Shown here in pieces: positions 5,690 through 27,880 of a DNA stretch of 35,662 nt; the stretch's first letter is position 1; each line of letters opens with the position of its first letter. This DNA comes from Bacillota bacterium (GTDB lineage Bacteria; Bacillota; Sulfobacillia; Sulfobacillales; Sulfobacillaceae). Position numbers and translations under genes: made by a program. A model generated the notes under the pieces. It ran no database searches, had not been told where the DNA came from, and worked only from the letters and a program-made list of their open reading frames with translations. The stretch lies in contig JAJYHT010000018.1 in the NCBI GenBank assembly GCA_021784595.1, positions 1-35,662 of the forward strand. The letters run 5' to 3'.

Positions 5690-5902
5690 GTTTTTAGTTT
5701 CGCCTCTTTCATACGCTCATCTTGGCCTTTTTTCCACCAGTTATGTTGTTAATGGTAAAAGATAATGGGGAGTATCGCAATTCAGGGTTTTAATTTTTGA
5801 ACCTGTAAGTTTGTAAAATTTATTTAATGTGTCAATCTACTATACTTAATAAATTTATCCTTGATGAAAGTAAGTTAATTTTTTCACAAATAGGAAACTT
5901 TA

Positions 5903-5931
5903 TTGAATTGTAATATATTCAGTACTATCAT
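5903..5931 (+). promoter_or_regulatory. promoter of the sHdr operon
   Basis: TTGAAT at 5903-5908, a 17-base spacer and TATCAT at 5926-5931 form a good sigma-A-type promoter. The -35 hexamer is identical to the one in front of tRNA-Pro (24025-24030). The predicted start near 5938 gives a leader of about 87 bases before the GTG at 6025. The whole 5690-5930 stretch is strongly AT-rich and otherwise without genes; TATACT at about 5839-5844 is another possible -10 element. Confidence 0.5.
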
Positions 5932-5945
5932 GGAGTTGACCGACA

Positions 5946-5966
5946 GGGCTAGTGACTACGGGCTAG
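5946..5966. promoter_or_regulatory. GGGCTAG direct repeat, candidate operator
   Basis: GGGCTAG occurs at 5946-5952 and again at 5960-5966, a 14-base period, just downstream of the predicted start of transcription. The inner GCTAG/CTAGC can also pair as a 5-bp hairpin. The position suits a repressor site. Known sHdr clusters in Hyphomicrobium are controlled by an ArsR-type repressor, but no such gene is in this window. Confidence 0.3.
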
Positions 5967-6024
5967 CAGAAAAGGGGTCGGGTGGTGACGGTTGATTCCC
6001 TCGTAAACCATAGGAAGGGTGAGC

Positions 6025-6492
6025 GTGTTGCAAGACCGCCTAGCGATCATTGTCTCTAAGGGTACCTTAGATATGGCCTATCCCCCGTTTATATTGGCCA
6101 CGGCTGCGGCTGCCTTGGATATGGAATGCATGTTGTTCTTTACATTTTGGGGCCTCGATGTAATCCACAAGGACAAAATTGACAATCTAGAAGTCTCCAT
6201 TGCGGGCAATCCCGGCATGCCTACCATGGCTAAAGTGGCCGGTGTCGTCCCGTTTGGCACCAAAATGGTGTCATCTATGTTTAAGAGCCAGTTTGCCAAG
6301 TCCCAAGTGATGCCGATTCGCGAATTTGTGCATGAGGCTAAAGAGTTGGGAGTTCACATGGTGGCATGTCAAATGTCGATGGATGTACTGGGTGTAAAAC
6401 GCGAAGAACTGGTGCCTGAAGTGGAAGACGTCGTGGGAGCTGCAACGTTTTTAGACTTTGCCCGGGACGCCAAAGTGAGCTTGTTTATTTAA
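6025..6492 (+). CDS. dsrE3A: DsrE3A-like sulfurtransferase
   Basis: 155 residues from GTG at 6025, chosen because AGGAAGG ends six bases upstream; the in-frame GTG at 6019 touches that site. The DsrE/DsrF-like fold is clear: first strand LAIIVSKGT, the DMAYPPFILATAAAALDM helix, the strand MLFFTFWGLDVI, a long insert, then VHMVACQMSMDVLGV. Cys115 in ACQMSMD sits where DsrE3A proteins carry persulfide. In characterised sHdr systems DsrE3A exchanges sulfane sulfur with TusA in the cytoplasm. It is the first gene of the operon, 116 bases before hdrC1, so a second internal promoter is possible. Confidence 0.85.
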   Translation: MLQDRLAIIVSKGTLDMAYPPFILATAAAALDMECMLFFTFWGLDVIHKDKIDNLEVSIAGNPGMPTMAKVAGVVPFGTKMVSSMFKSQFAKSQVMPIREFVHEAKELGVHMVACQMSMDVLGVKREELVPEVEDVVGAATFLDFARDAKVSLFI

Positions 6493-6608
6493 CAACGCGG
6501 CATTGTTCAAATGAGTGACCGATAGGTCTACAGGGCTTCAACACCTGTGGTAGCTGTGCTATTGCGTTGAGGTATGATGAAAATTCTGTTTTCAAAGGAG
6601 GTAGGAGG

Positions 6609-7295
6609 ATGCCATCAGACCGTTATCTGGAGGTTCCTCTGGTGGAGAAACAGCGCTTGTTCGATGAAGTCAAGGCGGACCCCAGATTTCACACGTACTT
6701 GTATGGATGCTACGAATGTGGCATTTGTGTGGCGGCCTGCCCGTCGGCTCGTTTTTATGACTTTTCACCGCGAAAAATTGCTCAAGCGGCAGCGCGGGAA
6801 GATCTTGAGTTGATTTACGAGCAGATGAACGATGACATCTGGAATTGCTCGCAATGTTTTTCGTGCAATCGCTGCCCTCGCCAGAACAGTCCTGGGGGAC
6901 TCATTACTATCATGCGTGAAGTAGCCGTAAAAAACGGCATGCGATCCATGAAAGAGGCCTTGGCCGGATATACTCGCATTATTTACAAAATCATGACCAC
7001 CGGGACCCAGGTTTCACCAGATATGCTTCAAGAGGATGCCTTCCCTGACTGGGGACCTCAAGTCAAGATGGTGTCGGACAATTTGGATTTGTGGCGTCGC
7101 GCCCTGCCTCCCGAAACCCTGCATACAACAGGATTGTCTTGGCAGGTTGAGGAGCGCACTATGCAGGAGCTTTACGCGATATGGAAGTTGACCGGAACTC
7201 TCGACATGATTAGTGAGGTCGATGAAGGCCTGCACGACATCATGGAAGAAATTATGGACGATGCACTAGAAGAGAGCGGCATTTCGGTTGACTAG
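6609..7295 (+). CDS. hdrC1: sHdrC1, heterodisulfide-reductase-like Fe-S subunit
   Basis: 228 residues, ATG preceded by GGAGGTAGGAGG. Two four-cysteine sites are visible: Cys34/37/40/44 (CX2CX2CX3CP, a standard [4Fe-4S] site) and Cys80/83/86/89 (CSQCFSCNRCP, CX2CX2CX2C, one residue shorter than usual). HdrC proteins wire electrons between the HdrA flavin and the HdrB catalytic clusters. Together with B1, A, hyp and C2B2 it forms the cytoplasmic sHdr complex that oxidises protein-bound sulfane sulfur. The C-terminus is long, acidic and helical. The gene ends 16 bases before hdrB1. Confidence 0.92.
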   Translation: MPSDRYLEVPLVEKQRLFDEVKADPRFHTYLYGCYECGICVAACPSARFYDFSPRKIAQAAAREDLELIYEQMNDDIWNCSQCFSCNRCPRQNSPGGLITIMREVAVKNGMRSMKEALAGYTRIIYKIMTTGTQVSPDMLQEDAFPDWGPQVKMVSDNLDLWRRALPPETLHTTGLSWQVEERTMQELYAIWKLTGTLDMISEVDEGLHDIMEEIMDDALEESGISVD

Positions 7296-7311
7296 AGAAA
7301 GGAGAGCGAAT

Positions 7312-8517
7312 ATGGAACCGATGGAAATACCCGTCTTGAAAGGCGGCACCAAGGTAGCGACCTCCCGCGTGTTTGATCGTGATCCCGATACTGTGCCCGA
7401 GGAAGATTTGCGTGAAGCTATATGGGCGTTGGGCCGCGAAGGCGAGTGGATTGTGCAGCCGGTTCCAGAACCATATTATCTTGCACCCACAAAATATGGC
7501 CGTTTGAAGAAAATTCCGCTTGAGCACACCTGGCATCACAAAAGCTGTGGTCAATGTGGGCATATTCCCGGCTATTCGACCTCGATTTTTTGGCTGAACC
7601 GTCTGTTGGGCTACGATTACTTTGACCCCCGCGACCAGACGTCGTGCACCGCTTGGAACTATTACGCCTCAGCAACATCCAATCAGGTTGCCCAAGCCGC
7701 GGTGGCTATGCGCAATTTTTCCGCTGCGTATGAATCTGGATATTTTCCCATGATTCATTGCGGAACGAGTTTCGGCCACTACAAAGAGGTGCGCCACGAA
7801 TTGGTGCATGATGCCAAATTGCGTCGTCAGGTGCGGGCCATTATGGACAAACTGGGCCGACCCTTTGTGATGCCGGAAGAAATTGTGCATTACAGCGAAT
7901 GGATGTATGCGATTCGTGACGAATTGAAAAACCGTGTTCAGTACGATTTGTCGAACATTACAGCCACGGTCCATCCTGCGTGCCACTATTACAAACTGCA
8001 AACCGGAGACGCCATTTATGACCCTGAGATATATGGTGGACAGCGGACCGCAGCCGTTACCGGGGTAGTGCAAACCTTAGGCGCCACCGTAGCCGACTAT
8101 TCTAGTTGGTACGATTGTTGCGGATTTGGGTTTCGGCACATCTTGGTGCAAAGAGACTTTACCCGAAGTTTCGCCACCTTGCGAAAAATTGAGGTGATGA
8201 AGGAAGAGGCCAATCCCGACGTGGTCTTAACGCATGACACAGGCTGTGTGACTTCGCTGGACAAAAGCCAATTTGCCGCGCAAGCCCACAATCGCAATGT
8301 CGGAGTCCCGGTCATGTCAGAATCTCAATTTGCTGCGATTGCTGTTGGCGCGCACCCGTTTCGGGTAGCGCAGCTCCACTGGCACTCTGTTGATTATCGG
8401 CCCTTGCTCAGCAAAATGGGGATTGATCCAGAAAAAGCGTGGATGGAATTCCAAGGTGACTTGGAGCAAATCAAGAGCGGAGCCATGGACTACCTAACGT
8501 GGGAGCACGTGCTCTAG
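7312..8517 (+). CDS. hdrB1: sHdrB1, heterodisulfide-reductase-like catalytic subunit
   Basis: 401 residues, ATG with AAAGGAGAG upstream. CCG-type motifs that bind non-cubane [4Fe-4S] clusters are present: Cys79/82 (SCGQCGH), Cys112 (TSCTAWNYY), Cys150 (IHCGTSFGHY), Cys224 (HPACHYYK), Cys269-Cys270 (DCCGFGFRH) and Cys312 (TGCVTSLDK). The last motif reads CxxS instead of the CxxC common in HdrB. In methanogen HdrB these clusters split disulfides; in sHdr they are thought to act on lipoate-bound sulfur. It is tightly packed between hdrC1 and hdrA (24-base gap). Confidence 0.92.
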   Translation: MEPMEIPVLKGGTKVATSRVFDRDPDTVPEEDLREAIWALGREGEWIVQPVPEPYYLAPTKYGRLKKIPLEHTWHHKSCGQCGHIPGYSTSIFWLNRLLGYDYFDPRDQTSCTAWNYYASATSNQVAQAAVAMRNFSAAYESGYFPMIHCGTSFGHYKEVRHELVHDAKLRRQVRAIMDKLGRPFVMPEEIVHYSEWMYAIRDELKNRVQYDLSNITATVHPACHYYKLQTGDAIYDPEIYGGQRTAAVTGVVQTLGATVADYSSWYDCCGFGFRHILVQRDFTRSFATLRKIEVMKEEANPDVVLTHDTGCVTSLDKSQFAAQAHNRNVGVPVMSESQFAAIAVGAHPFRVAQLHWHSVDYRPLLSKMGIDPEKAWMEFQGDLEQIKSGAMDYLTWEHVL

Positions 8518-8541
8518 ACAAAAATGGAGGGAAGGGCGATT

Positions 8542-9609
8542 ATGGCTGGTTCAGATACCGTATTGATTGTGGGAGCGGGACCGGGTGGGATCGAAGCCGC
8601 TCGAGGAGTGGCCGACCTTGGCAAACGTGCTCTCCTGGTTGAGACAAAAGGCGATATTGGGGGCACCCCCTACGAGTATTATGCCACCTTAACACCCGAT
8701 TTGCGCGAAACTCATGAAGCGATGCATGAGATGGTGACTGCAGTAAAAGAACATCCGTTGATTGACTTGCGATTGAATACTCGGGTTGTCAATAGCGAGG
8801 GAGAGATCGGCCACTTCAAGGTGACACTGCAGGATGAGTCCGGGTCGCGAACCGAGGAAGAGGTGGGCGCTATTGTTGTCGCCACAGGATTCCAGCACTT
8901 TGATCCAGGGCGGGAGACCCAGATGTACGGGTACTACGAGTACGATGATGTGCTGACTCTGGTAGATGCCGAGCAAATGTTCAAAGCGGGACGAATTGTC
9001 CGGCCCTCCAACGGCGAAGTTCCGGAACGGGTAGCCTTTATTCAGTGCGTGGGATCGCGGGACCGTCAAATCGGCAATCAGTGGTGTTCCAAAGTGTGTT
9101 GCGGTATTGCATCCAAACAGTCTATCGAAATTAAGCGGATGTTGCCGAATGCGAAAGTCTTCATCTTCTATATCGACATGCGGATGTACGGATTTTGGGA
9201 AGACATGATTTATTGGAAGGCGCAAGAGGAGTACAAGGTCAACTATATTCGCGGGATTGTCACTGAAATCATTCGGAAAGGAGATAAATTGCTGATCAAA
9301 GGGGAAGACACCACCATGGGGCGGCCGATGGAGGTGCTAATGGACATGGTGATTTTGTCAGTGGGTATGGAGCCGTCGAAAGGCACGCTGGAAATGGCCA
9401 ACATTTTCAATCTGCCGCGTGAAGAGCATGGATTTATTGCCACCAAAGACGGTGGTCCTTTGGACACGGTCTCCACCAAAGTGCCAGGCATATTCCTAGC
9501 GGGAGCCGCAGCAGGACCTAAAGACATTGAAGATACGGTCTCGATGGGTGGTGCAGCAGCCATGAAAGCGGTGGCAACCTTAAATCGGCTAGCGCTTGAA
9601 GTGGGATGA
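8542..9609 (+). CDS. hdrA: sHdrA, FAD-binding subunit
   Basis: 355 residues from ATG at 8542, with AGGGAAGGG upstream; an in-frame ATG at 8524 has no site. A Rossmann FAD motif opens the protein (VLIVGAGPGGIEAARG, GxGxxG at residues 11-16), followed by the second nucleotide segment IVVATGF, the HdrA cysteine signature IQCVGSRD...WCSKVCC and the C-terminal PGIFLAGAAAGPKDI flavin-contact block. At about 355 residues it is the short sHdr form, without the extra ferredoxin and thioredoxin-reductase-like domains of methanogen HdrA. It overlaps the next gene by four bases (ATGA). Confidence 0.93.
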   Translation: MAGSDTVLIVGAGPGGIEAARGVADLGKRALLVETKGDIGGTPYEYYATLTPDLRETHEAMHEMVTAVKEHPLIDLRLNTRVVNSEGEIGHFKVTLQDESGSRTEEEVGAIVVATGFQHFDPGRETQMYGYYEYDDVLTLVDAEQMFKAGRIVRPSNGEVPERVAFIQCVGSRDRQIGNQWCSKVCCGIASKQSIEIKRMLPNAKVFIFYIDMRMYGFWEDMIYWKAQEEYKVNYIRGIVTEIIRKGDKLLIKGEDTTMGRPMEVLMDMVILSVGMEPSKGTLEMANIFNLPREEHGFIATKDGGPLDTVSTKVPGIFLAGAAAGPKDIEDTVSMGGAAAMKAVATLNRLALEVG

Positions 9610-10331
9610 TGACGCCGGTAATAGATGCCGAAGCGGTCAAAGAATTTCTCGACAAAGCCGAGCCATTTTTAACGTCGGATATGCTGCATCACTGGGATGT
9701 AACGTTGCTAGCGCGTCAGCAAAAACTAACCGAGATACTCTTCAAACCATCTCTAAATTCGAACGCCCGTATCAAAAGTCTATCAGCATTGGTTGCCAGT
9801 ACGGCCAGGCTTTCAGAAGACGCATTAATACCGTGGATGCCTGTGATGCAAAGAGTTCTCGATCTGACTATCGACGATGTTCAGGCCGTTGTGCCTTACA
9901 TCGGAGGATTGGACTCGGCTCCGAGTTGGTTGTGGGAATGGGCAACTTTTTGGGGATTTACCATCGATCCCGTCCAGCATCCATGGTGGAGCCGATGGCT
10001 CTATTCCCCAGACAGCCGCACCGGTTCGATGGCGTTGGTGATGATGGACCCTGAGCAGCTCAGCAGCACGGCAGACGAGTTGTATCAGCAGTTAAGCATG
10101 GGAGTCACGTTTTACGTGAGTGTGCTGGAATCGACCAGACGATTCAATGTGGTTTCGGATCGGTTTCGTGGCTGGATTGGCCTTGCCTGCACTTATGCGG
10201 TCTATATGTTCACGATGGCATCCTGGCGACTCACCACGGAGTTTACCCAAGTCATGCCGCCATTTCCCAAGGTGGTTCAAAGTCTTCTTGGGATTCATAG
10301 ATGGGAGGGATCCGTCTTTGCAAAAGGCTAA
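9606..10331 (+). CDS. conserved hypothetical protein of sHdr clusters ('hyp')
   Basis: 241 residues, starting inside the hdrA stop codon (ATGA overlap). It has no cysteine motif, so it is not an Fe-S carrier. It is rich in Trp and aromatic residues (WLWEWATFWGF, HPWWSRWLY) and has one hydrophobic helix near residues 195-210. A gene of unknown function at exactly this place, between hdrA and hdrC2, is a known part of sHdr operons, and this one is assigned by position and size. It may be a structural subunit of the complex. It overlaps the fused hdrC2-hdrB2 gene by 14 bases. Confidence 0.75.
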   Translation: MMTPVIDAEAVKEFLDKAEPFLTSDMLHHWDVTLLARQQKLTEILFKPSLNSNARIKSLSALVASTARLSEDALIPWMPVMQRVLDLTIDDVQAVVPYIGGLDSAPSWLWEWATFWGFTIDPVQHPWWSRWLYSPDSRTGSMALVMMDPEQLSSTADELYQQLSMGVTFYVSVLESTRRFNVVSDRFRGWIGLACTYAVYMFTMASWRLTTEFTQVMPPFPKVVQSLLGIHRWEGSVFAKG

Positions 10332-11580
10332 ATCTATTGAACTGGAGGTTGCGGTAGTCAATGGCATCGAATTGCCGGGGCATTGGAACCGCATGTTCGA
10401 ACCTCGTGTGATTTCGGAGTATGACTTGTCAGTGCTTGATCAAGTCACCAGCATACCTGGCGCAGAGTCGCTCGGATACTGCTATCAATGCGGCAAATGC
10501 ACCGCCGTGTGCCCCGTTGAGACCGTGGGGGATTACTCACCTCGCAAGATATTTCGAAAAACACAACTCGGCGTGTCTTTGATGGATAGTCCAGACTTAT
10601 GGCTTTGTACCACGTGCCGCAATTGTTTACGGGTCTGTCCCAAAGAAGTCAACATGATTGACATTATGCCAGCAGTGCGGGAGCAGGCGGTGCTCGAAGG
10701 TAAGGCACCGGCAGAGTTGCTGACCGCGTTTGAGAATACGGCACGCTATGGCAATCCGTTGGGGGAACCGCCACGCAAGCGCACTGAATGGGTGAAAAGC
10801 GCTGAAGTTCCGGTCCCGGTGATGTCCCAGGTGAAGGCACCGGTCGACGTGTTATGGTTTGTAGAATGCTACCCCTCGTATCATCCACGAGGCAAGGATG
10901 CCTCGGTTGCCCTTGCGCGCCTATTCAACGCACTAGGCGTCGAGTTCGGTATTTTAGGCACCGAGGAAAAGTGTTCGGGAGACTCACAAAGAATGGCTGG
11001 CGAAAAAGGGCTGTTCGAGATGTTAGCCGAACACAACATCAAGATGCTGTCGAAGTATCAGTTCAACCAAATCGTGGTTACTGACCCTCATGCATTTAAT
11101 GCGTTCCTGCACGAGTATCCCAAATATGGCGGCCAATGGCCGGTGCAGCATTACACGCAATTTTTGGCTCCGCTGATCGACCAAATGCATTTGACCCGTC
11201 CCTTAAACAAAAAGGTAACGTTCCATGATCCGTGTTACCTAGGCCGGCACAACGGTGAATACGAGGCGCCGAGGGATCTCTTGAAAGCCATTCCGGGACT
11301 GGATTTAGTGGAGATGGGTCACTGCCGGGAAACCGCTTATTGCTGCGGGGGAGGCGGTGGTGGCATGTGGCTTGATAGTTTTACCCGGGACTATACCAGT
11401 CAACGTCTTTCGGAGAAGCGAGTGCTGGAAGCGGTGGAATATGGAGCGGACATTTTAGCAGTCACCTGTCCCTATGAAGTCTCCCGGTTTGAGGATGCAG
11501 TCAAGTCGACAGGAAATGGGGGCCGGCTTGAGGTCAAAGATATTGCTGAATTGCTGGCTTATTCAGCGGAGTTGATTTGA
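10318..11580 (+). CDS. fused sHdrC2-HdrB2 subunit (HdrB3/HdrD-like)
   Basis: 420 residues from TTG at 10318, with GGGAGGG eight bases upstream; the longer frame to 10120 only shadows the hyp gene. The N-terminal HdrC part has two [4Fe-4S] sites, Cys55/58/61/65 (CYQCGKCTAVCP) and Cys97/100/103/107 (CTTCRNCLRVCP). The C-terminal HdrB part carries one full CCG motif: HDPCYLGRH, AYCCGGGGGGMW and VTCPYEVS. The first CCG motif is degenerate (ECYPSYHP, then EEKCSGD, with CSG replacing CCG). Separate hdrC2 and hdrB2 genes are usual in proteobacterial sHdr operons. The fusion with downstream etfAB matches what I recall as the second sHdr operon type. It is strongly similar to the soluble half of the membrane protein at 13356-15353. 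Confidence 0.88.
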   Translation: MQKAKSIELEVAVVNGIELPGHWNRMFEPRVISEYDLSVLDQVTSIPGAESLGYCYQCGKCTAVCPVETVGDYSPRKIFRKTQLGVSLMDSPDLWLCTTCRNCLRVCPKEVNMIDIMPAVREQAVLEGKAPAELLTAFENTARYGNPLGEPPRKRTEWVKSAEVPVPVMSQVKAPVDVLWFVECYPSYHPRGKDASVALARLFNALGVEFGILGTEEKCSGDSQRMAGEKGLFEMLAEHNIKMLSKYQFNQIVVTDPHAFNAFLHEYPKYGGQWPVQHYTQFLAPLIDQMHLTRPLNKKVTFHDPCYLGRHNGEYEAPRDLLKAIPGLDLVEMGHCRETAYCCGGGGGGMWLDSFTRDYTSQRLSEKRVLEAVEYGADILAVTCPYEVSRFEDAVKSTGNGGRLEVKDIAELLAYSAELI

Positions 11581-11629
11581 GCCGACTCACTCTGATGGAA
11601 AAATTCGTACCCCATGAAGGAGGTTCCTA

Positions 11630-12397
11630 ATGCGTATTTTGGTATTGACCAAATCGGTTCCTGACTTGGTTGAGGAACTGGTTTTAGACGAAGACAGCGG
11701 GGAGCTGCTCCATGATGAGATGACCTATGTGCCCAGCGAGTGGGATGATCATGCGGTGGAAGAAGCACTGTTGATAAAAGAGGACTCGAATGCCGACGTC
11801 ACGGTATTGGCTGTGGATACAGGAGACGTGGACAACATGCTGTTTACGGCGTTGGCTAAAGGAGCAGACCGGGCAATCAAGCTCCAAGGGGATTTCGACT
11901 TGTCGACATCCAACCGTAAACGGGCACAGGCGATCGCGCACTATGTGAAGGAAAACCCTTACGATCTGATTTTATCCGGGGTTCAAGCCATTGATGACAT
12001 CGATGGCCAAATTCCTGCCATGGTGGCTGGCCTGTTGGGGATGCCCCATGCTTCCGTGGTGACCGATGTCCGGCTAGATGGCGACCGTGTTCATTTTCAT
12101 CAAGAGTATGGGGGAGGGCTTCAGGCCGAACTGGCTAGTCAGACGCCGGTTGTGTTGGGGATTCAAGCGGCGCGCAAGCCACCCCGATACGCCTCGATAG
12201 CTAAGGTGCGTCAGATGATGAAGTCTTCTGTTTTGGAAGAGGTTGAAGTAGCTGTCGAGGAAGTGCCGGAATTGGAGATTCGACGATTCTTCAAGCCAGT
12301 GGCCGCGGGCCATGCCGAAATGATTGATGGGGACGCGGAGGAAGTCGCCGAGCGGATTGTCTCTATATTAAAAGAACGTAATTTGGTAAGGGGGTAA
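11630..12397 (+). CDS. etfB: electron transfer flavoprotein beta subunit
   Basis: 255 residues, ATG with GAAGGAGG upstream. Typical EtfB layout: MRILVLTKSVPD start, DDHAVEEALLIKE, ADVTVLAVDTG, ALAKGADRAIKL, then the nucleotide-binding segment LILSGVQAIDDIDGQIPAMVA and the PPRYASIAKVRQM recognition region. EtfAB heterodimers carry FAD (and AMP or a second FAD) and shuttle electrons between dehydrogenases and a quinone reductase. Its place directly behind the sHdr subunits and ahead of a membrane ETF oxidoreductase suggests that it accepts electrons from sHdr. It lies five bases before etfA. Confidence 0.95.
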   Translation: MRILVLTKSVPDLVEELVLDEDSGELLHDEMTYVPSEWDDHAVEEALLIKEDSNADVTVLAVDTGDVDNMLFTALAKGADRAIKLQGDFDLSTSNRKRAQAIAHYVKENPYDLILSGVQAIDDIDGQIPAMVAGLLGMPHASVVTDVRLDGDRVHFHQEYGGGLQAELASQTPVVLGIQAARKPPRYASIAKVRQMMKSSVLEEVEVAVEEVPELEIRRFFKPVAAGHAEMIDGDAEEVAERIVSILKERNLVRG

Positions 12398-12402
12398 AAC
12401 GA

Positions 12403-13353
12403 GTGGGTCCGATACTGGTGGTGGCGGAATTTACAGAAGGCGAGTTGTCTGATACCAGTCGAGAACTCTTGACCAAGGCGCGAGAATTGGCGCAATCCCT
12501 CGGCTCGGAAGTGATAGCGGTAGGCTTTGGATCTCATGCAGAGCACGCGATGGCCAATGCGGATGCGGATCGCGCGGTAGCGATAACCGGGCTAGGGTTG
12601 GACCAATATCTTCCGCTTACTTACGAACGCACATTGTCTCAGATTGTGTCGGAGTATCACCCCCTACTGACCATGGTGGCAAATTCTACTATGGGACTGG
12701 ATTTGGGAGCTGGAGTAGCGGCGGCTCAGCACATGCCGGTGATTGCCTATTGCAACGGGCTACACACTGACGCAGAGGATATTGTGGCGCAGTGCCAGGC
12801 TTTTGCTGGGAAATTGCTGGCTGAGGTGGCGGTACCGGCCGGTGGTGCTGTAATCACAGTGTTGCCGGGATCCTTTGGGTCGTCTGGCACCAGCGGCCAT
12901 CCTGAAGTCACGGTGATGGCAGTAGATTCTGTGCCAGGGATGGACGTTGTGAAAATTTTAGAGCCGGAAAAGGGCGACGTGGACATTACCCGGGCCGATA
13001 TTCTGGTAAGTGTCGGTCGGGGGATAGGAGATCCAGAAAACCTGGGACTGGCGCAAGAACTAGCCGAGGCTATTGGGGGAGTAGTCAGTTGCTCGCGCCC
13101 GGTAGTGGATGCTGGATGGCTGCCTAAGGCACGACAGGTGGGAAAGTCTGGTCAAACCGTCAAGCCCAAATTATATTTGGCGTTGGGAATCAGCGGGGCA
13201 CCGGAGCATTTGCAAGGCATGAAGGATGCCGACCTCATTATTGCTGCCAATACCGATGAATCCTCTTCAATTATGGAAGTGGCTCATTATGGCACTACCG
13301 TGGATATCTTGGATTTGATGCCTGCGTTAGCTGAACGGTTGAGGGGGGAGTAG
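12403..13353 (+). CDS. etfA: electron transfer flavoprotein alpha subunit
   Basis: 316 residues, GTG start with GGGGGT about seven bases upstream, overlapping the end of etfB's site. The N-terminal alpha/beta domain begins MGPILVVAEFTEGEL. The C-terminal FAD domain is easily seen: GRGIGDPENL, SRPVVDAGWLPKARQVG, KSGQTVKPKLYLALGISG and a final AANTDESSSIMEVAHYG. The usual 'INKD..APIF' appears as ANTDESSSIM, a divergence close to the flavin that could change its redox potential. The stop is followed within three bases by the next start, so the three genes are translationally coupled. Confidence 0.95.
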   Translation: MGPILVVAEFTEGELSDTSRELLTKARELAQSLGSEVIAVGFGSHAEHAMANADADRAVAITGLGLDQYLPLTYERTLSQIVSEYHPLLTMVANSTMGLDLGAGVAAAQHMPVIAYCNGLHTDAEDIVAQCQAFAGKLLAEVAVPAGGAVITVLPGSFGSSGTSGHPEVTVMAVDSVPGMDVVKILEPEKGDVDITRADILVSVGRGIGDPENLGLAQELAEAIGGVVSCSRPVVDAGWLPKARQVGKSGQTVKPKLYLALGISGAPEHLQGMKDADLIIAANTDESSSIMEVAHYGTTVDILDLMPALAERLRGE

Positions 13354-13355
13354 CG

Positions 13356-15353
13356 TTGGCGCTGCGCGATGTTTTAATGGCGGCTACAATCATTATGTTT
13401 GTGGCCGCCGGCGCCATTTTTTCCCGGCGCTTTTGGAATATCTACCAAGTGATGAAAAAGTCGCGTCCCACCAATCGGTCTGATCGCTTGGGAGAGCGCT
13501 TAACGTCTACCTTTATTCAGGTATTTGCTCATAAACGCATGTTGAAGATCCGATATTCCGGCGTGCTCCACCTATTCATATTCAGTGGATTTGTGGTGTT
13601 GCTGATCGACGTGGTGGGGTCCATATTGCAACTGTTCGTTGCAGGATTTTCCATCGGGCCAGTGCTGGGCATGATAGTGGACATATGGGTCTGCCTGGTG
13701 CTTATCGGGGTGGTGATGGCCATTTATCAACGCGCCGTGATAAAACCGGAACGCTACCATGGCTCCGACGAGACGGATGGCTACATCATTTTAGGGATGA
13801 TTACCATGATTGTCATTGGTATTGCCATCCATGAATCGTTTTATCCTTATGCAGCAATACCGGTCTTTGGTGTGAAGTCGGCGCCCATCGGTGCAATGGA
13901 GTTTTTAGCCTATGGGTTGTCTCATTTGTGGGCGACACTGGGCTGGACTGCGCCTAGGGCCGCGAGTATTGGCTATGCAGTTGGTTATGCGATGGACATT
14001 TTGGTGATCTGGATATTTTTGGCCTATCTGCCATATTCGAAACATTTGCATGTTTTTCTGGCTATACCCAATATCTTTGTGCGAAAAATGCGTCCCCCCG
14101 GCGAATTGGTGCCTTCTCCAGTGCCGGAAGAAGGGATCGCCATTAGAAGTTTTGGGGACTTATCGTGGAAAGATGTGATGGACCTTTATACCTGCACCGA
14201 ATGTGGACGGTGCCAGGCCGTCTGTCCTGCCCATGCGGCAGGCCAGGCTTTGTCTCCGAAGATGATCATTTTGGAGTTGCGAGAGGCGCTTAAGAAAGAA
14301 TTGGCCGGTGGCGAGCCGATTCCCTTGGCGGGAGGTGTAGTTAGTCAGGAAGAGCTGTGGGCATGCACGACTTGTGGAGCCTGCATGGAAGCGTGCCCGG
14401 TCTTTATCGAACATGTCCCCAAGATTGTAGGCATGCGGGCAGCATTGTTGGAGGATGGTGAAATTGATAAGAGCGCGCAGAAAGTCCTGGTAGGGTGGGA
14501 CCGCCAGGGGAATTCCTTTGGTCAACCGTTAAAGAAACGTCCACAATGGACTAAAGGGCTGGATGTTGCAATAAAGGATGCCCGTCGAGAACCCGTGGAT
14601 TGGCTTTGGTTTGTCGGTGACTTTGCTTCCTATGACCCTCGCTTGCAAGATCTTACGCGGCTGGTGGCGCAACTCTTGCAAAGAGCCGAGGTGGACTTTG
14701 GAATTCTCTACGATGGCGAGAGCAATTCAGGAAACGATGCACTGCGGATAGGGGAGTTTGGACTCTTCGAAGCTTTGGCGCAAAAAAACCTGGCGAAGCT
14801 GGAAGAAGCGCAATACAACATGATATTTACCACGGATCCGCATTCACTGAACGCTTTGAAAAACGAGTATGTCAAGTACGGCTTCGATCGGCCCGTTAAG
14901 CATTATACGGAGGCCTTCGTAGACTTGATTGAGGGTGGAAAGTTTGATTTGAAACCGTTGGGAATTCGAGCAACCTATCACGACCCTTGTTATCTCGGGC
15001 GATGGAACCGGATTTTTGATGCGCCGCGAGAGCTAATCAAACGCGTGGGCGTAGATTTGGTGGAAATGCCGCGCCACGGCGAGAATAGTTTTTGCTGTGG
15101 AGCGGGTGGTGGACGAATTTGGATGGAAGAAGTGGGCATCAAAGAGCGACCCGCAGATCAACGAATTAAGGAGGCGCTGACCTTAGAGGGGGTGACGCAC
15201 TTTGTGGTGGCATGTCCTAAAGATGTGGCCATGTTTACTGCAGCGGTAGCGTCGACCGGAAATGAAGGGCGGCTTCGCGTTGTCGATGTGGCTGAACTTT
15301 TGGCGGAAGCGGCGGGTCTAGGCATCCCAGACAAGTTGGTGGCAACCCGCTGA
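13356..15353 (+). CDS. membrane Fe-S ETF:(mena)quinone oxidoreductase-like protein (EMO/EtfD)
   Basis: 665 residues, TTG start with GGGGGGAG five bases upstream. An N-terminal NarI-like membrane domain has hydrophobic helices near residues 8-22, 70-95, 103-124, 143-160 and 213-226, with histidines (72, 159, 190, 230) able to bind b-type haem. Two ferredoxin sites follow (Cys280/283/286/290 and Cys337/340/343/347), then an HdrB-like domain with one complete CCG motif (HDPCYLGRW, FCCGAGGGR, VACPKDVA). This is the architecture of EMO/EtfD, which passes ETF electrons to menaquinone. In its first CCG motif the cysteines are gone (GDFASYDPR, GESNSGND). It is probably the membrane exit of the sHdr electron path. 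Confidence 0.88.
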   Translation: MALRDVLMAATIIMFVAAGAIFSRRFWNIYQVMKKSRPTNRSDRLGERLTSTFIQVFAHKRMLKIRYSGVLHLFIFSGFVVLLIDVVGSILQLFVAGFSIGPVLGMIVDIWVCLVLIGVVMAIYQRAVIKPERYHGSDETDGYIILGMITMIVIGIAIHESFYPYAAIPVFGVKSAPIGAMEFLAYGLSHLWATLGWTAPRAASIGYAVGYAMDILVIWIFLAYLPYSKHLHVFLAIPNIFVRKMRPPGELVPSPVPEEGIAIRSFGDLSWKDVMDLYTCTECGRCQAVCPAHAAGQALSPKMIILELREALKKELAGGEPIPLAGGVVSQEELWACTTCGACMEACPVFIEHVPKIVGMRAALLEDGEIDKSAQKVLVGWDRQGNSFGQPLKKRPQWTKGLDVAIKDARREPVDWLWFVGDFASYDPRLQDLTRLVAQLLQRAEVDFGILYDGESNSGNDALRIGEFGLFEALAQKNLAKLEEAQYNMIFTTDPHSLNALKNEYVKYGFDRPVKHYTEAFVDLIEGGKFDLKPLGIRATYHDPCYLGRWNRIFDAPRELIKRVGVDLVEMPRHGENSFCCGAGGGRIWMEEVGIKERPADQRIKEALTLEGVTHFVVACPKDVAMFTAAVASTGNEGRLRVVDVAELLAEAAGLGIPDKLVATR

Positions 15354-15380
15354 TGGCAGTAAATAACGGGAGGTTTTAGG

Positions 15381-15821
15381 ATGAGTGAAGTGAACGGATG
15401 TCGACTGCCTGATGACTTGTACTACTGGGTGGATAAGCATGTATGGGCCAAACCTTTAGAAGACGGGACCGTGTTGGTGGGGATGACGGACGTAGCGCAA
15501 AGCTTGGCGGGGAAGATTGTGGTGGTGAGCTTGCGCTCTTTGAATAAAACATTGGTGAGAGGCAAGAGCGCGGGGACGTTGGAGAGCGGAAAGTGGGTCG
15601 GATCCATTCCTACTCCGGTAGCCGGAACGGTGATTGCGGTCAATGAGCAGTTGAAAGGCAAGCCTAGCATTATCAACGATGACCCGTACGGAGATGGCTG
15701 GATCATCAGGGTTCAGCCGTCCAATTGGGAAAGTGACCAAGGAGAACTAGTGACGGCAGAAGTTGGTGTGCAAGCGTATCGCGATAAATTGGAAGCGGAT
15801 GGCATTCATTGCGGTGGATAG
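15381..15821 (+). CDS. lbpA1: lipoate-binding protein LbpA (GcvH-like), copy 1
   Basis: 146 residues, ATG with GGGAGG upstream. The fold is that of glycine-cleavage H protein: VLVGMTDVAQSLAGKIVVV, then the lipoyl loop TLESGKWVGSIPTPVAGTV with Lys71 as the modified residue, then INDDPYGDGWIIRVQP. LbpA proteins of sulfur oxidisers differ from GcvH and carry lipoate that binds sulfur intermediates for the sHdr complex. No gcvP or gcvT is nearby and an sHdr operon precedes it, so LbpA is the right reading. A cysteine near the C-terminus (IHCGG) is also seen in this family. Confidence 0.93.
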   Translation: MSEVNGCRLPDDLYYWVDKHVWAKPLEDGTVLVGMTDVAQSLAGKIVVVSLRSLNKTLVRGKSAGTLESGKWVGSIPTPVAGTVIAVNEQLKGKPSIINDDPYGDGWIIRVQPSNWESDQGELVTAEVGVQAYRDKLEADGIHCGG

Positions 15822-15836
15822 AAGGAGGGATCTTCG

Positions 15837-16316
15837 TTGTCCACAGTCTTTGCCTGCGAATTTCCCGACCATCTGTGGTTTGACGTGGAGCGGGATGTCT
15901 GGATTCTGGCTCTTGAGAACGGTTTTCTGCGGTTGGGAATGACAGATCCTGCCCAAACTCGGTCCGGAAAAGTTTTACATGTGCGGGCGCGGGCGGGAAA
16001 AACCCAACCTATCGGGAAAAGTCTGGCCACGATTGAATCGGGGAAATGGGTAGGTCCTTTTCCGGCTCCGGTGGCGGGCACTGTAGTCAAGGTGAATCAA
16101 GCGGTACTGGCCGATCCCAATCTCATTAACCGAGATCCGTATGGGGCCGGATGGTTGGTTGAAATTCAGCCGGAAAACCCGGACTGGCACCGACCGGACT
16201 TGGTGCTAGGGGAAGATGTGGCGCCATTATATCAATCGAAGCTGAAAGAGGCGGGCTTGACCTGTATGCGGTGCGCGCCTTTGGATGGGGAGGATGACGG
16301 CAGTGCGCTACCTTAA
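15837..16316 (+). CDS. lbpA2: lipoate-binding protein LbpA (GcvH-like), copy 2
   Basis: 159 residues, TTG start with GAAGGAGGG six bases upstream, 15 bases after copy 1. It shares the core with copy 1 (LRLGMTDPAQTRSGKVLHV, TIESGKWVGPFPAPVAGTV with lipoyl Lys70, INRDPYGAGWLVEIQP) but has diverged considerably and ends in an extra CMRC tail rich in Asp/Gly. The tandem pair suggests duplication followed by specialisation, for example for different partners. Its 3' end overlaps the ligase gene by 14 bases, coupling carrier and modifying enzyme. Confidence 0.93.
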   Translation: MSTVFACEFPDHLWFDVERDVWILALENGFLRLGMTDPAQTRSGKVLHVRARAGKTQPIGKSLATIESGKWVGPFPAPVAGTVVKVNQAVLADPNLINRDPYGAGWLVEIQPENPDWHRPDLVLGEDVAPLYQSKLKEAGLTCMRCAPLDGEDDGSALP

Positions 16317-17388
16317 TTTGGGAACGGTCTCCAGTGCGAGCTCTCAAGCCGTTTATCACGCACTGGCCGAACGTATGGCGGACCAGACTGCGGAACCGAC
16401 ATTAGTGACAGTTAGTCCAGACAGGCCTTACGCGTGTGTGGGATATCATCAAGTGGCGAGTCGGGAAATTGATCGGGGCTATTGCGAGTCGCAGGGAATT
16501 TTGGTAGGAAGGCGCATGGTGGGGGGCGGTGCCGTCTACCTCGACCATGACCAAATCTTTTGGCATCTCCTGCTCCCGACCTACCATGGGACCGTAGAGA
16601 CTCTGTATCACGACATCTTGAAAGCACCGATTGCGGCCTATCGAAAAATGGGCATCAGTGCAGAACATCGCCCAGTCAACGACATCGTGGTCGGTTCCCG
16701 GAAAATTGGCGGCACGGGAGCGGCTCAGTTGGGTCAGGCCACCGTTATCGTTGGCAGCATTTTGATGGACTTTGACAGCAAAAGCATGGCCCGCATTTTG
16801 CGAGTGCCCTCGGAAAAGTTTCGTGACAAGATGGTAGCGAGCTTGGACGAGTATATGACAACCGTTCGGCGGGAACTAGGCGAGGCGGCTCCTAGTCGTG
16901 AAGAGGCGACGGGACTGCTGGTTCGTGAATTCTGCATCGCCTTGGGTCAAGAAGTGCGGGACAGTCATCTAACACCGCAAGAATGGGATGGCGTCCACAA
17001 ATATGCACACACACTGTTTGACCCTGATTTCGTGTATAAGGGAGAACGCGGTTTGATTCAAGCTGGCGTTAAGATTCGCGGAGACGTTCACCTGTTTGAA
17101 GGAGTGCACAAGGCACCAGGTGGACTGATTCGGCTCATTTTTCGAACTCGGGACGGTTTAATTGACGATGTGGCACTCAGTGGAGACTTCTTTGTCACAC
17201 CGCTGGATGACGGCAGCATAGGTGAGTTTCAAAGGTCTCTGGTGGGCAAGCCAAACCGTGATACCATGATATTAGAGGCGGCTTTTCAGTTGTTGGCTCG
17301 AGTTTATATCCCCGGAGTCACAGCAGACGATATTCGGCAAGCATATTTAAATGCGCAATTGTTGGAGGTTGCAAGACTAGGGTCCTAG
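16303..17388 (+). CDS. lipoate-protein ligase for LbpA (sLpl-like)
   Basis: 361 residues from GTG at 16303, nine bases after GGGGAGG; ATG at 16285 or 16294 would add a few residues but has no usable site. The biotin/lipoate ligase fold is clear: YACVGYHQVASREID, GRRMVGGGAVYLDHDQIFWH (the RRxGGGAVxxD lipoyl-AMP loop), VNDIVVGSRKIGGTGAAQ with the catalytic lysine, and TVIVGSILMDFD. The C-terminal accessory domain is present. It activates lipoate or octanoate with ATP and loads it onto LbpA. Specific ligases of this kind are known companions of sHdr genes. No lipoyl synthase is in the window, so sulfur insertion or lipoate supply must come from elsewhere. Confidence 0.9.
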   Translation: MRYLNLGTVSSASSQAVYHALAERMADQTAEPTLVTVSPDRPYACVGYHQVASREIDRGYCESQGILVGRRMVGGGAVYLDHDQIFWHLLLPTYHGTVETLYHDILKAPIAAYRKMGISAEHRPVNDIVVGSRKIGGTGAAQLGQATVIVGSILMDFDSKSMARILRVPSEKFRDKMVASLDEYMTTVRRELGEAAPSREEATGLLVREFCIALGQEVRDSHLTPQEWDGVHKYAHTLFDPDFVYKGERGLIQAGVKIRGDVHLFEGVHKAPGGLIRLIFRTRDGLIDDVALSGDFFVTPLDDGSIGEFQRSLVGKPNRDTMILEAAFQLLARVYIPGVTADDIRQAYLNAQLLEVARLGS

Positions 17389-17418
17389 ATCACAAATAAC
17401 TATCAGGAGGCTAATCCC

Positions 17419-17670
17419 ATGAGCGAACAAAGCAGCGTAGAAACCATTGCCTTAAAAGTCGATGCGTCCGGTTTAAAGTGCCCAATGCCGGTCATTCGGG
17501 CCAAAAAAGGGATATCGAGTGTTGAGATCGGTCAGAACATGGAGATTTTGGCGACAGACCCGGGTGCTATGGCTGATTTCAAGGCATGGGCCAGGTCAAC
17601 CGGAAATGAACTGTTATTGGCAGAACAAAATGGCGACGTGTTTCGGTTTGTTATTCGGAGATTGAAATAG
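17419..17670 (+). CDS. tusA: TusA sulfur carrier protein
   Basis: 83 residues, ATG with AGGAGG upstream. The TusA/SirA signature LKVDASGLKCPMPVIRAKK is present, with the persulfide-carrying Cys21 in CPMP, followed by a small two-layer fold (ATDPGAMADFKAWARSTGN). TusA moves sulfane sulfur between rhodanese, DsrE3A and the sHdr machinery. It has 13 bases to the next dsrE-like gene, which supports a joint role. Confidence 0.95.
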   Translation: MSEQSSVETIALKVDASGLKCPMPVIRAKKGISSVEIGQNMEILATDPGAMADFKAWARSTGNELLLAEQNGDVFRFVIRRLK

Positions 17671-17683
17671 GGAGGTAAAAGAG

Positions 17684-18061
17684 ATGGATGATACGAAAAA
17701 GTACCTATATATCCTGACCACCGGTCCCGAAGTGGCATATCGCTCCGCTTCGCCATTTTTCCTAGCTACCACCGCCGCGCTTATGGACCACGACGTATCG
17801 ATGGTCTTCACCATCAAGGCGACTGGGTTGCTGAAAAGAGGATTGGCCGAAACCTTGATGGTGAAAGAAGGGGGAGAAGGAGCCAACCTTCAGTTTTTTA
17901 TCGACCAAGCTCGTGAGGCAGGGGTGAAATTCTACGTCTGTGCTCCCAGCTTGGACTTGAATGATTGTTCGGTTGAAGATTTGATCGACAATGAGGGCGT
18001 AGTCGGTGGCACAGCAGTTAATGAGATGGCTCTTGAGTCCGACGTTGTGATTACGTTTTAG
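17684..18061 (+). CDS. DsrE-family protein, small paralog
   Basis: 125 residues, ATG with GGGAGG upstream. It has a single DsrE-like domain: YLYILTTGPEVAYRSASPFFLATTAALMDHDVSMVF (strand, helix, strand) and VKFYVCAPSLDLNDC with Cys86 and Cys95. Cys86 aligns with the active cysteine position of DsrE proteins (compare ACQMSMD in the first operon gene). It lacks the long insert of the DsrE3A at 6025. It may be a DsrE3B/C-type carrier, but I cannot settle the subtype. It lies two bases before the GAF gene. Confidence 0.8.
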   Translation: MDDTKKYLYILTTGPEVAYRSASPFFLATTAALMDHDVSMVFTIKATGLLKRGLAETLMVKEGGEGANLQFFIDQAREAGVKFYVCAPSLDLNDCSVEDLIDNEGVVGGTAVNEMALESDVVITF

Positions 18062-18063
18062 CC

Positions 18064-18540
18064 GTGGATGGCGAAACGGAAGTCCATTCAGTGGATCAAA
18101 TAGTGCCCCAAGTCTCTAATTGGATAAGTCAAGGGAGCGGCAAGATTGGCTTGATGGCGAACGTTGCCGCTCTTTTCTTTGGACACTGGGAACACGCTTC
18201 TTGGGTGGGATTTTACCTGGTTGGTGCTTGGGAATCACCTCTGATGCTAGGACCTTTTCAAGGTCGCCCAGTTCCTCCCGCGTTGGACTGGGGAACGGGG
18301 ATCGTGGGCATGGCAGCTCGAGAACGTTCGGTGCAGTTGGTGCATGGGGTAAAACACTTTGCTGGCTATTTGGCGCACGTTGCGGAGACCCGTTGTGAGG
18401 CAGCCATCCCCATCGTGTGCCATGGACGGGTGTTGGCTGTCCTTGATGCCCAGTCCAAGCAAGTGGAAGGTCTCGGTGTTTTGGAACTGGAGCTAATGAC
18501 AAAGGTTGCCGAATTATTAAGCCAAGCTTGGTGTGAATAG
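18064..18540 (+). CDS. GAF-domain protein related to free methionine-R-sulfoxide reductase, active-site cysteines lost
   Basis: 158 residues, GTG start two bases after the dsrE-like stop; no clear ribosome-binding site, so coupled translation is likely. The whole protein is one GAF domain of the fRMsr type (LMANVAALFFGHWEHASWVG, LGPFQGRP, GTGIVGMAA, HGVKHFAGYLA, VLAVLDAQS). Against my memory of the E. coli enzyme it aligns without gaps, but the three redox cysteines are replaced by Pro71, Val81 and His105. It is therefore probably not a reductase and could be a small-molecule or redox sensor. It is the last gene of the operon. Confidence 0.75.
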   Translation: MDGETEVHSVDQIVPQVSNWISQGSGKIGLMANVAALFFGHWEHASWVGFYLVGAWESPLMLGPFQGRPVPPALDWGTGIVGMAARERSVQLVHGVKHFAGYLAHVAETRCEAAIPIVCHGRVLAVLDAQSKQVEGLGVLELELMTKVAELLSQAWCE

Positions 18541-18555
18541 GGTCTTATACGGATG

Positions 18556-18599
18556 ATGGCAAAGCCGCCCAAAGCGTTTTTCGTGGGTGGCTTTGCCAT
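18556..18599 (+). terminator. hairpin at the end of the sHdr operon
   Basis: A 16-bp stem (18556-18571 with 18584-18599, one G-U pair) and a 12-base loop lie 16 bases after the GAF stop. No T-run follows, so it may act with Rho or stabilise the 3' end rather than work as a simple intrinsic terminator. Confidence 0.65.
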
Positions 18600-18721
18600 G
18601 GCTAGTGGATCCTGTGCCAAAAATTGCTCAGACAATTTGTAACAACTTTGCAATGAAAGTAGTGTATAGTAGGTCATCGGACAGGCTAATCAGAGCGGGA
18701 CGTACGAAAGGGTGGGTCAGT

Positions 18722-24105: not shown

Positions 24106-24486
24106 TTAGCTCGATCCCCCATATGAGGGGGACTCCTTGGCCTCACATTCACGACGTAAAGGTCGATCATTGGTGACACACGTCCATCCCCGTTCTTTGG
24201 CAAGGAGCAGACATAGGTGGTCCTGCATAGACAGCCGACCTCGTCCTTGAGCGGCCGCAAGCAGTTGGTTAACGTCAGGTTTTACAAGAGTGATTCCCAG
24301 CCGCGCACAATCCGCCTCTGCGAGTTCCTTCACTTCGCCCAGCACTGGTGTAGCCACATTAATTGTTCCCACGTGCGTTGAGATCATCGCAATAATAGAA
24401 TCGTCGCAGTGAGCATAGTCCACAAGGATGTTAGCGTCCAATATCAGCAATGGCCGAGAGGTCCCGCTCACCTGCTCTATTCCCAC
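24106..24486 (-). CDS. PIN-domain protein, probable toxin ribonuclease
   Basis: 126 residues, GTG start overlapping the upstream gene by ten bases; GTG at 24471 is an alternative. It has the PIN fold: LLILDANILVDYAHCDD with Asp17, GEVKEL with Glu51 or Glu54, MQDHLCLLLAKERGWTCVTNDRPLRREC with Asp89 and Asp107. These acidic residues would bind Mg2+ in an RNase of the VapC kind. Coupling to an XRE/ImmA gene suggests a toxin-antitoxin pair, possibly like the known PIN-ImmA partnerships. The C-terminal Ser/Gly tail is short. Confidence 0.8.
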   Translation of the reverse strand: MGIEQVSGTSRPLLILDANILVDYAHCDDSIIAMISTHVGTINVATPVLGEVKELAEADCARLGITLVKPDVNQLLAAAQGRGRLSMQDHLCLLLAKERGWTCVTNDRPLRRECEAKESPSYGGSS

Positions 24487-25628
24487 GATGCAACGCGGTC
24501 TCGCATAGTATCCAAGTCTAATCGTAGGACTTCCGCGCCTCTGCTGAGGGTAATGTCCTCTCGTTCGATCGCGAGACGCACTAGCTTGGACAACCGGTCT
24601 TCCACGAAATCTGACGCAGACAAAGAATCCGGCTCTTGGGACCGCAACACTTCGGACATAGATTGATGAAATGAACAGGGCAGCAACGCCTCGGGTTCGT
24701 CCATGACCCTTAAGGTCCTTCCCGTTCGCGACTTAAAGCCCACTTGAAACCTCTCCCAAACGGAGCTTCCATAACCCTCCGACAATCGGTACAGCACCGT
24801 TTTGTAGCTTACCTGGAATATGCGTTTGACTTTAAGCACGCGATCCACAAAGGCCAACCCATAAGTCTCACTCCACTCCGGTTCGAAGGCATCGTCAGGC
24901 ATTAGGAAGTGGGACGCAAAAATGTTGGCCTCATGCTCGTGCTCCTCATCCTCTTGGGTTTCGTCTACCTGATACGCTTCCAGGTGTAATAGCAAATGGC
25001 CTAGCTCATGGGCCGCACTAAAAATCCATCGTTCAACCGCAATGCGTTCCCACACATTCACCACGATAGCTGGACCACCATCTTGCGTCGAGACGGACAG
25101 GCCGAAGAAGTCATCTGACGCAAGAATGAACGGGTAAAGTTTAATACCTCTGGATTCCAGCAAACCGGCGGTATCCCGAATTGGTTCCTTCGGAGCAAGG
25201 CCCATCTCCTTCCTCGCGCTTTGGGCAGCCTGTCTGGCGCGGGATGCCCCCTGGGGAACTGCTGCAAGCTGACGCGCGAGACCGCCGACCTTGTAGGAAA
25301 TTTTGTCATCCAGCAGGTCTTCCAAGTAATCGAAATCCTCTAACCATCGCGCCACGTCGGTCAGGATCTGGTCTCGACTTTTCATCCGCTTGAGGGCCCG
25401 AAATCGTACATGCTCCAACGTACGAACGGGACTCACCAGATCCTCGAGTCTCACTCCAAGACCTGCTGCAATGTTCTGCAACGTGGACACTTTGGGCATG
25501 GAGTCTCCGGTTTCGATGTTGCGGTATGCAGGACGGGACAAACCACTCAGAGTCGCCACATGCTCTTGCGTAAATCCCTTACTCTCACGAATTCGGCGAA
25601 GATTGGCGCCAATCACATTGAAAGCCAT
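24477..25628 (-). CDS. XRE-type HTH / ImmA-IrrE (M78) metallopeptidase fusion, probable antitoxin-regulator
   Basis: 383 residues from ATG at 25628 (AAGGGTGG upstream). The frame runs on to 25784, but that part is AT-rich operator DNA. Residues 5-65 are an XRE helix-turn-helix (IGANLRRIRESKGFTQEHVA, LSRPAYRNIETG). Residues 150-260 are the ImmA/IrrE domain with zinc motif HELGH (His207, Glu208, His211) and a third ligand in EHEANIFASHFLMP (Glu233). The C-terminal 120 residues are unassigned. Proteins of this type repress their own promoter and can cleave or neutralise partners. It is directly followed by the PIN gene. Confidence 0.88.
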   Translation of the reverse strand: MAFNVIGANLRRIRESKGFTQEHVATLSGLSRPAYRNIETGDSMPKVSTLQNIAAGLGVRLEDLVSPVRTLEHVRFRALKRMKSRDQILTDVARWLEDFDYLEDLLDDKISYKVGGLARQLAAVPQGASRARQAAQSARKEMGLAPKEPIRDTAGLLESRGIKLYPFILASDDFFGLSVSTQDGGPAIVVNVWERIAVERWIFSAAHELGHLLLHLEAYQVDETQEDEEHEHEANIFASHFLMPDDAFEPEWSETYGLAFVDRVLKVKRIFQVSYKTVLYRLSEGYGSSVWERFQVGFKSRTGRTLRVMDEPEALLPCSFHQSMSEVLRSQEPDSLSASDFVEDRLSKLVRLAIEREDITLSRGAEVLRLDLDTMRDRVASWE

Positions 25629-25642
25629 AAACACCACCCTTC

Positions 25643-25715
25643 TTGTTATATTTTGTTCTTTTATTGTAACCAAAAAATCAGATTTTGTTATCATGATATG
25701 TATGATTAACAAAAT
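25643..25715. promoter_or_regulatory. operator region of the XRE-ImmA/PIN pair
   Basis: ATTTTGTTA at 25682-25690 is the exact inverse of TAACAAAAT at 25707-25715 (16-base gap). A further direct copy ATTTTGTT is at 25650-25657, and TTGTTAT occurs at both 25643-25649 and 25686-25692. The sites lie in the AT-rich stretch just upstream of the XRE gene, where the promoter must be, as expected for autoregulation. Confidence 0.55.
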
Positions 25716-25781
25716 TTCATTGTCCTCGTATAATGTAGCCAAGATGAGAAGCACCAAGAACAGACCGACCATCGAATTCGA

Positions 25782-25812
25782 CAAAAAGACACGGCATGGT
25801 CAGATGCCGTGT
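25782..25812 (-). terminator. rho-independent terminator of the peptide importer operon
   Basis: ACACGGCAT (25789-25797) and ATGCCGTGT (25804-25812) form a perfect 9-bp stem with a six-base loop; on the minus strand it is followed by CTTTTT. It lies about 135 bases after the last permease stop. Confidence 0.75.
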
Positions 25813-26898: not shown

Positions 26899-26920
26899 GG
26901 TTGAGAGCGCTCCTTTCGCA

Positions 26921-27808: not shown

Positions 27809-27880
27809 AACATCACCCTTCAATAGCGGAGGTGGACCCAATCACGACGATTGGGCCCCCTTCTGACGGCAATTTAAACG

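Follow-up and report, generated by a model that had tools for sequence, protein, structure and literature searches.

Sulfur oxidation by the heterodisulfide reductase-like complex sHdr and the lipoate-binding protein LbpA is known from the type I system of Hyphomicrobium, which has been tested genetically and in which sHdr-LbpA forms sulfite (PMC10332631). A second arrangement, type II sHdr, was delimited by Li et al. (2024) as shdrC1B1AHB3 together with etfAB in one cluster (PMC11582611); Justice et al. (2014) had described hdr gene cluster II, with etfAB, in all Sulfobacillus genomes (PMC4378227), and Cao et al. (2018) placed the arrangement in their Group III, found in Actinobacteria and Firmicutes (PMC6067878). 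Islam et al. (2019) proposed that Hdr electrons possibly reach the respiratory chain via the electron transfer flavoprotein (ETF) (PMC6776052). Here, we analysed a predicted type II sHdr-LbpA operon in a 35,662-nucleotide stretch of DNA, hereafter the window, which is one contig (JAJYHT010000018.1; G000:C18 in our sample) of a 3.79 Mb draft genome of a Bacillota bacterium of the family Sulfobacillaceae (GCA_021784595.1). The family was represented by 34 genomes, Sulfobacillus included. We consider it likely that the cluster encodes a dedicated electron route from sHdr via EtfAB and a predicted membrane ETF:quinone oxidoreductase, EMO, to menaquinone, which is the best explanation of the operon. 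An earlier note, written by a model from the DNA letters, had arrived at the same route; since both the arrangement and the ETF exit were already published (PMC4378227, PMC6067878, PMC6776052, PMC11582611), its interpretation is an independent restatement rather than a new proposal.

The cluster comprises 15 genes on the plus strand, between positions 6028 and 18540, flanked by candidate regulatory elements:

5864–5931, plus strand: probable promoter block, with TTGAAT-17-TATCAT at 5903–5931 (9/12 match; conserved in two congeners)
6028–6492, plus strand: dsrE (DsrE2-like, PF13686, E 1.1e-45), probable start TTG 6028, common to congeners
6567–7295, plus strand: shdrC1, 4Fe-4S dicluster subunit
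7288–8517, plus strand: shdrB1, CCG-domain subunit
8524–9609, plus strand: shdrA, FAD/Fe-S flavoprotein (HdrA-family matches, E 2e-78)
9606–10331, plus strand: shdrH/hyp, conserved all-alpha protein with no Pfam family
10318–11580, plus strand: fused shdrC2B2 (= shdrB3), probable start TTG 10318 (Fer4 and two CCG domains)
11630–12397, plus strand: etfB, with the cluster-specific recognition loop PRYASIAKVRQ
12403–13353, plus strand: etfA
13356–15353, plus strand: emo, predicted membrane ETF:quinone oxidoreductase of the DgcB-like branch, without D1 ligands
15381–15821, plus strand: lbpA (first), lipoyl lysine in ESGKWVG
15837–16316, plus strand: lbpA (second), lipoyl lysine in ESGKWVG
16285–17388, plus strand: lipoate-protein ligase, catalytic and C-terminal accessory domains
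17419–17670, plus strand: tusA
17684–18061, plus strand: dsrE (second, short)
18064–18540, plus strand: GAF-domain protein related to free methionine-R-sulfoxide reductase, aligned cysteines lost
18556–18602, plus strand: strong hairpin 3' of the cluster, no T-run in the window

Pfam and NCBIfam assignments agree with the row of genes and the identities given in the earlier note, and 13 of the 14 junctions are overlapping or shorter than 50 bases, in line with its description of them as mostly so; the sole exception is the dsrE-hdrC1 junction, with at least 74 bases. All 21 complete family loci retain the gene set, which puts this order far beyond chance. The syntenic shdrC1, B1, A, H and fused B3 genes, the etfAB genes within the cluster and the LbpA lysine with its linked ligase place the window among type II sHdr clusters. 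It shares with type II, hdr gene cluster II and Group III the Hdr core with a fused C2B2, etfAB, LbpA, ligase, TusA and two DsrE, and differs in coming from another genus of the family. The longer hdrC reported by Justice et al. (2014), with six transmembrane helices and two CCG domains and syntenous with etfAB (PMC4378227), is EMO. The cluster of Thermomicrobium roseum (trd_0160-0142, PMC6776052) likewise holds hdrABC, etfAB, tusA, dsrE1/2 and lbpA (three there), but belongs to another phylum and has another order, and TusA-DsrE precede Hdr in a Thermomicrobiaceae locus of our survey (L074). Type I clusters (Hyphomicrobium, Acidithiobacillus) have the shdrC1B1AH core, LbpA, sLpl(AB) and sulfur transferases in common with the window, but carry separate shdrC2 and shdrB2 and often linked lipS1/S2. 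That type I is defined without etfAB (PMC11582611) bears out the remark in the earlier note that proteobacterial sHdr operons often do not encode the electron acceptor.

We surveyed the linkage of etfB, etfA and emo to sHdr within and beyond the family. The sHdr-specific Hyp gene is present in 23/34 family genomes, and all 21 complete family loci, that of the window included, contain the three genes. They lie after hdrC2B2 in the genus of the window and in the large genus g9, whereas in about half of the family (g2, g4, g6, g8, g10 and g11) they come behind the GAF gene and close the cluster; the existence of these two orders indicates that etfB, etfA and emo moved as one unit while staying inside the cluster. 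The two orders probably correspond to IIa and IIb of Justice et al. (2014). Outside the family, named genomes scanned for HdrC2B2 at 55% identity or more yielded 27 further loci, mostly from metagenome-assembled genomes, which were recorded as Alicyclobacillus, Chloroflexota/Thermomicrobiota, Deltaproteobacteria/Myxococcota, Actinomycetota, Bacteroidota, Gemmatimonadota and Calditrichota. All three genes occur in 25/27 of these, and in the two exceptions the contig breaks off 1.8 and 3.4 kb beyond hdrC2B2. When only loci with 9 kb or more on each side were counted, etfB-etfA-emo was found in 15/15, compared to 1/19 among loci of equal length around distant HdrC2B2-like genes. The block is thus obligatory in type II sHdr clusters. 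Such clusters are the clearest genetic hint to the electron acceptor of sHdr sulfur oxidation. The earlier note had suggested a survey of whether the three genes always follow the fused hdrC2B2 gene: they are always in the cluster, but "always follows" is wrong, because the block ends the cluster in roughly half of the family and is not adjacent to hdrC2B2 in several other loci (L071, L084, L089 and L091). In another type II cluster (L078), EtfB still follows hdrC2B2 and EtfA lies about 6 kb from EtfB.

EMO of the window resembles EtfD of Mycobacterium smegmatis (PDB 9OJN) in sequence (E 1e-88, about 30% identity) and in its AlphaFold model (TM 0.88), and we mapped the ligand positions of the EtfD structure (PMC13083937) onto 45 cluster EMOs. 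All 45 retain heme His78/241, Arg137/306 and every D3 and D4 cysteine, and they also retain quinone Phe85/230 save in one Chloroflexi group (Leu/Ile). At D2, Cys637/672/673/709 and His583 are kept and Cys712 is replaced by Asp in every copy, while all four ligands of the linear [3Fe-4S] cluster D1 (Cys503/538/581/584) are replaced throughout (by D, N, D and S in EMO of the window). The heme b His pair, the quinone site, two cubane clusters, the CCG domain and the EtfD fold put the cluster EMO in the EMO/EtfD superfamily; with D1 lost, it lacks the complete ligand set of EtfD proper, as well as the long C-terminal tail. In contrast, no ligand, D1 included, is lost from the second EMO of the genome or from its 24 orthologues in the family (25/25). 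The combination of D1 loss and Cys712Asp is shared with EMOs beside dimethylglycine (DMG) dehydrogenase-like genes (Azoarcus) and with an Agrobacterium EMO beside a GMC oxidoreductase with EtfA, and these fall together with the cluster EMOs in one starred, DgcB-like branch of the tree. We therefore discarded the idea that the ligand loss is unique to sHdr: the pattern is not sHdr-specific, since the branch is common to GMC- and dimethylglycine-linked systems. These systems have another dehydrogenase partner and the same linkage to etf genes, and the DMG-linked EtfB retains a Leu recognition loop. FadF-type EMOs of Bacillus lost D1 separately and keep Cys712. The authors of the EtfD structure argue that D1-less FadF and DgcB take ETF electrons directly at D2 (PMC13083937), and by analogy the cluster EMO should do the same.

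Among solved structures, cluster EtfB is nearest to the W3A1 ETF. Our trees were built quickly and have long branches; in them, a starred clade holds the cluster EtfBs together with GMC-linked ETFs and no others, at a distance from the bifurcating CarD and Bcd-EtfB and from the second EtfB of the genome, which carries a separate second ETF as well as the second EMO. Consistent with this, the DGDTAQVG stretch of CarD and Bcd-EtfB reads DDIDGQIP in the window, and by sequence EtfAB groups with the non-bifurcating (AMP-type) ETFs. The recognition loop that docks dehydrogenases in human ETF (PMC4148887) has a Leu in canonical ETFs, in DMG-linked ETFs and in the second EtfB of the genome, compared to Ile or Val in 48/48 cluster EtfBs, where it is mostly followed by [ASGT][KR][VIL]R. 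Loss of the Leu alone is not diagnostic, because bifurcating EtfBs also have Val there. A deletion of the loop was considered and ruled out; the true loop is present in altered form, and it is a stretch about 10 residues downstream (the human VIKPGDLGVD region) that is about 5 residues shorter in all cluster EtfBs than in most ETFs.

The gene content, the obligatory linkage, the fold and ligand pattern of EMO and the class and loop signature of EtfB are the sequence basis of the following route. TusA and the DsrE proteins would pass sulfane sulfur to the sHdr complex (C1, B1, A, Hyp and C2B2), where LbpA, lipoylated by the ligase of the operon, would help to oxidise it to sulfite. Electrons gathered by sHdr, with the FAD of sHdrA as the most likely site, would then reduce the dedicated, non-bifurcating EtfAB, which in turn would deliver them to EMO at D2, the entry point expected because EMO is without the D1 cluster of EtfD. 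Inside EMO, they would run from D2 via D3, D4 and heme b to menaquinone. A route from ETF via EtfD to menaquinone is known from papers on mycobacteria, and Sulfobacillus makes menaquinone (PMC4378227). The route of the earlier note thus stands as the best-supported reading, on the obligatory block, the heme and quinone residues of EMO, the non-bifurcating EtfB and the separate second ETF and EMO. Its claim that the operon carries every piece holds for the electron route but not beyond it; the lipoyl synthase LipA of the genome, for example, is on another contig.

Phylogeny agrees with this route in part. The Hdr core tree unites Sulfobacillaceae and Alicyclobacillus with full support, the EtfB tree agrees (support 86), and EtfA does not contradict it (p 0.295). 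Several observations weigh against a dedicated sHdr-EtfAB-EMO route. The EMO tree rejects the grouping of Sulfobacillaceae with Alicyclobacillus (approximately unbiased (AU) test, p 8e-7), and a single origin of all cluster EMOs was likewise rejected; as the EMOs of the two groups differ in history, tight sHdr-EMO co-evolution is excluded. The same EMO branch also serves the GMC- and dimethylglycine-linked systems, and the evidence for the step from sHdr to EtfAB consists of linkage and co-inheritance. Because type I sHdr functions with no EtfAB linked to it, an ETF is no intrinsic need of the complex. In Sulfobacillus acidophilus TPY, hdr transcripts were more abundant with FeSO4 than with S0 (1.35-3.0 in the published table; PMC5114278), a pattern unlike that of a simple sulfur-induced operon. 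Since the EtfAB trees fit Hdr and the EMO tree does not, EtfAB appears to be the partner that stays with sHdr, and EMO an adaptor for which another of its branch has been substituted, which suggests that EMO is an exchangeable adaptor for sulfur, dimethylglycine and GMC-oxidoreductase pathways. On balance, we lean towards a more detailed picture in which type II sHdr systems of many phyla have a dedicated electron exit in common. In it, a co-inherited EtfAB with a loop unlike that for acyl-CoA dehydrogenases feeds a replaceable EMO of the DgcB-like kind, from which the linear [3Fe-4S] cluster has been lost and whose D2 is remodelled (four Cys, His and probably Asp). If so, ETF must deliver directly to D2, because that cluster is lost. 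The EtfB loop signature and the EMO ligand pattern make the proposed route more specific and testable. These signatures and the EMO exchange are absent from PMC11582611, PMC4378227 and PMC6067878, and the EMO details may have been described earlier elsewhere.

Four other explanations bear on where the electrons go. Cao et al. (2018) argued from potentials (-0.29 V) that the electrons of LbpA dihydrolipoamide pass to NAD+ via a shared dihydrolipoamide dehydrogenase, leaving only the other pair to EtfAB-EMO (PMC6067878). NADH would be useful to an autotroph and the operon holds two LbpA, but no dihydrolipoamide dehydrogenase gene lies within the 15-gene operon (other loci were not searched for one), and we judge such a split exit unlikely. 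It is also quite improbable that the flow is reversed, with menaquinol feeding EMO, EtfAB and sHdr and the complex reducing disulfides or persulfides: in syntrophs, EMO-type enzymes can run toward ETF, and Hdr enzymes work in both directions, but menaquinol is ill suited to drive the reduction of low-potential disulfides in an aerobic acidophile. The lower hdr transcripts of TPY on S0 would fit a reversed flow (PMC5114278), yet TusA, DsrE, LbpA and the ligase go with sulfur oxidation to sulfite in type I (PMC10332631).

The sharing of the EMO branch raises the further question of whether the EtfAB of the operon serves another dehydrogenase and is merely co-located with sHdr. ETFs are generalists, and close relatives of EMO act beside GMC oxidoreductase or dimethylglycine dehydrogenase-like genes. 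We nevertheless hold this to be very improbable, given that no acyl-CoA, GMC or amine dehydrogenase gene is among the 15 cluster genes of the window, that the sHdr-ETF linkage persists across many phyla, that the EtfB loop is unlike those of acyl-CoA- and DMG-linked ETFs, and that the genome has another ETF. A bifurcating EtfAB, making low-potential electrons or NADH from sHdr electrons, is hardly credible; bifurcating members do exist in both the HdrA and ETF families, but the position of EtfB beside the W3A1 ETF and its DDIDGQIP stretch set it away from CarD and Bcd-EtfB.

Both LbpA proteins have the ESGKWVG lipoyl-lysine motif, and the cysteine motifs are kept in TusA and in both DsrE. A second TusA, 72% identical to that of the cluster, is encoded on another contig of the genome (G000:C28, locus L062, 9880-10128). 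The predicted model of Hyp is all-helical and confident (pLDDT 93), and a Foldseek search for fold relatives among solved structures found none (best E 0.83); on this model, Hyp is apparently a conserved sHdr subunit with a fold so far unsolved. In the fused HdrC2B2, the first two CCG cysteines, which are lost in EMO, are kept, the next two are Asp/Ala and the last is Glu; in the Gordonia copy (L090) the first two are lost too. These CCG clusters probably differ from standard noncubane clusters. The GAF gene turned up in the clusters of Sulfobacillaceae and Alicyclobacillus and in no others (copies in L038-L059 and L069). Both cysteines that align with the S. aureus protein (positions 84 and 108) are lost in 22/22 copies, so the product lacks the cysteines of a free methionine-R-sulfoxide reductase; its role may be that of a sensor or binding protein. 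One genome, complete on a single contig (L045; G020:C1, 5160-8947), has its hdrA interrupted by about 3.8 kb of additional DNA, and sHdr may thus be broken there, or the insert mobile.

For the first gene, TTG 6028 is a likelier start than GTG 6025, because the TTG is common to two congeners. An ATT start for HdrC2B2 was dropped in favour of TTG 10318, which is kept in many relatives and is most likely the start, overlapping hyp. The candidate promoter falls in an upstream block conserved in two congeners, but to call it good, as the earlier note did, is an overstatement, since it matches only 9 of 12 consensus positions and such matches are no commoner than in shuffled sequence (10 found, 14.6 expected). 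Just 3' of the -10 box, an inverted repeat (GCTAGT...GCTAGC, 5949–5967) falls within the upstream block that is conserved across three congeners, and could be a regulator site or a leader hairpin. The long hairpin reported after the last gene is real (approximately 18556–18602, z = -5.5), but without a 3' T-run in the window its role as a terminator is only putative; in one congener, a hairpin at the matching place is followed by TTTTTT. Further downstream, a minus-strand gene (24477–25784) encodes a helix-turn-helix protein with a HELGH metallopeptidase motif, ImmA/IrrE-like by eye, and is adjoined by a peptide ABC-transporter operon (25948–29641).

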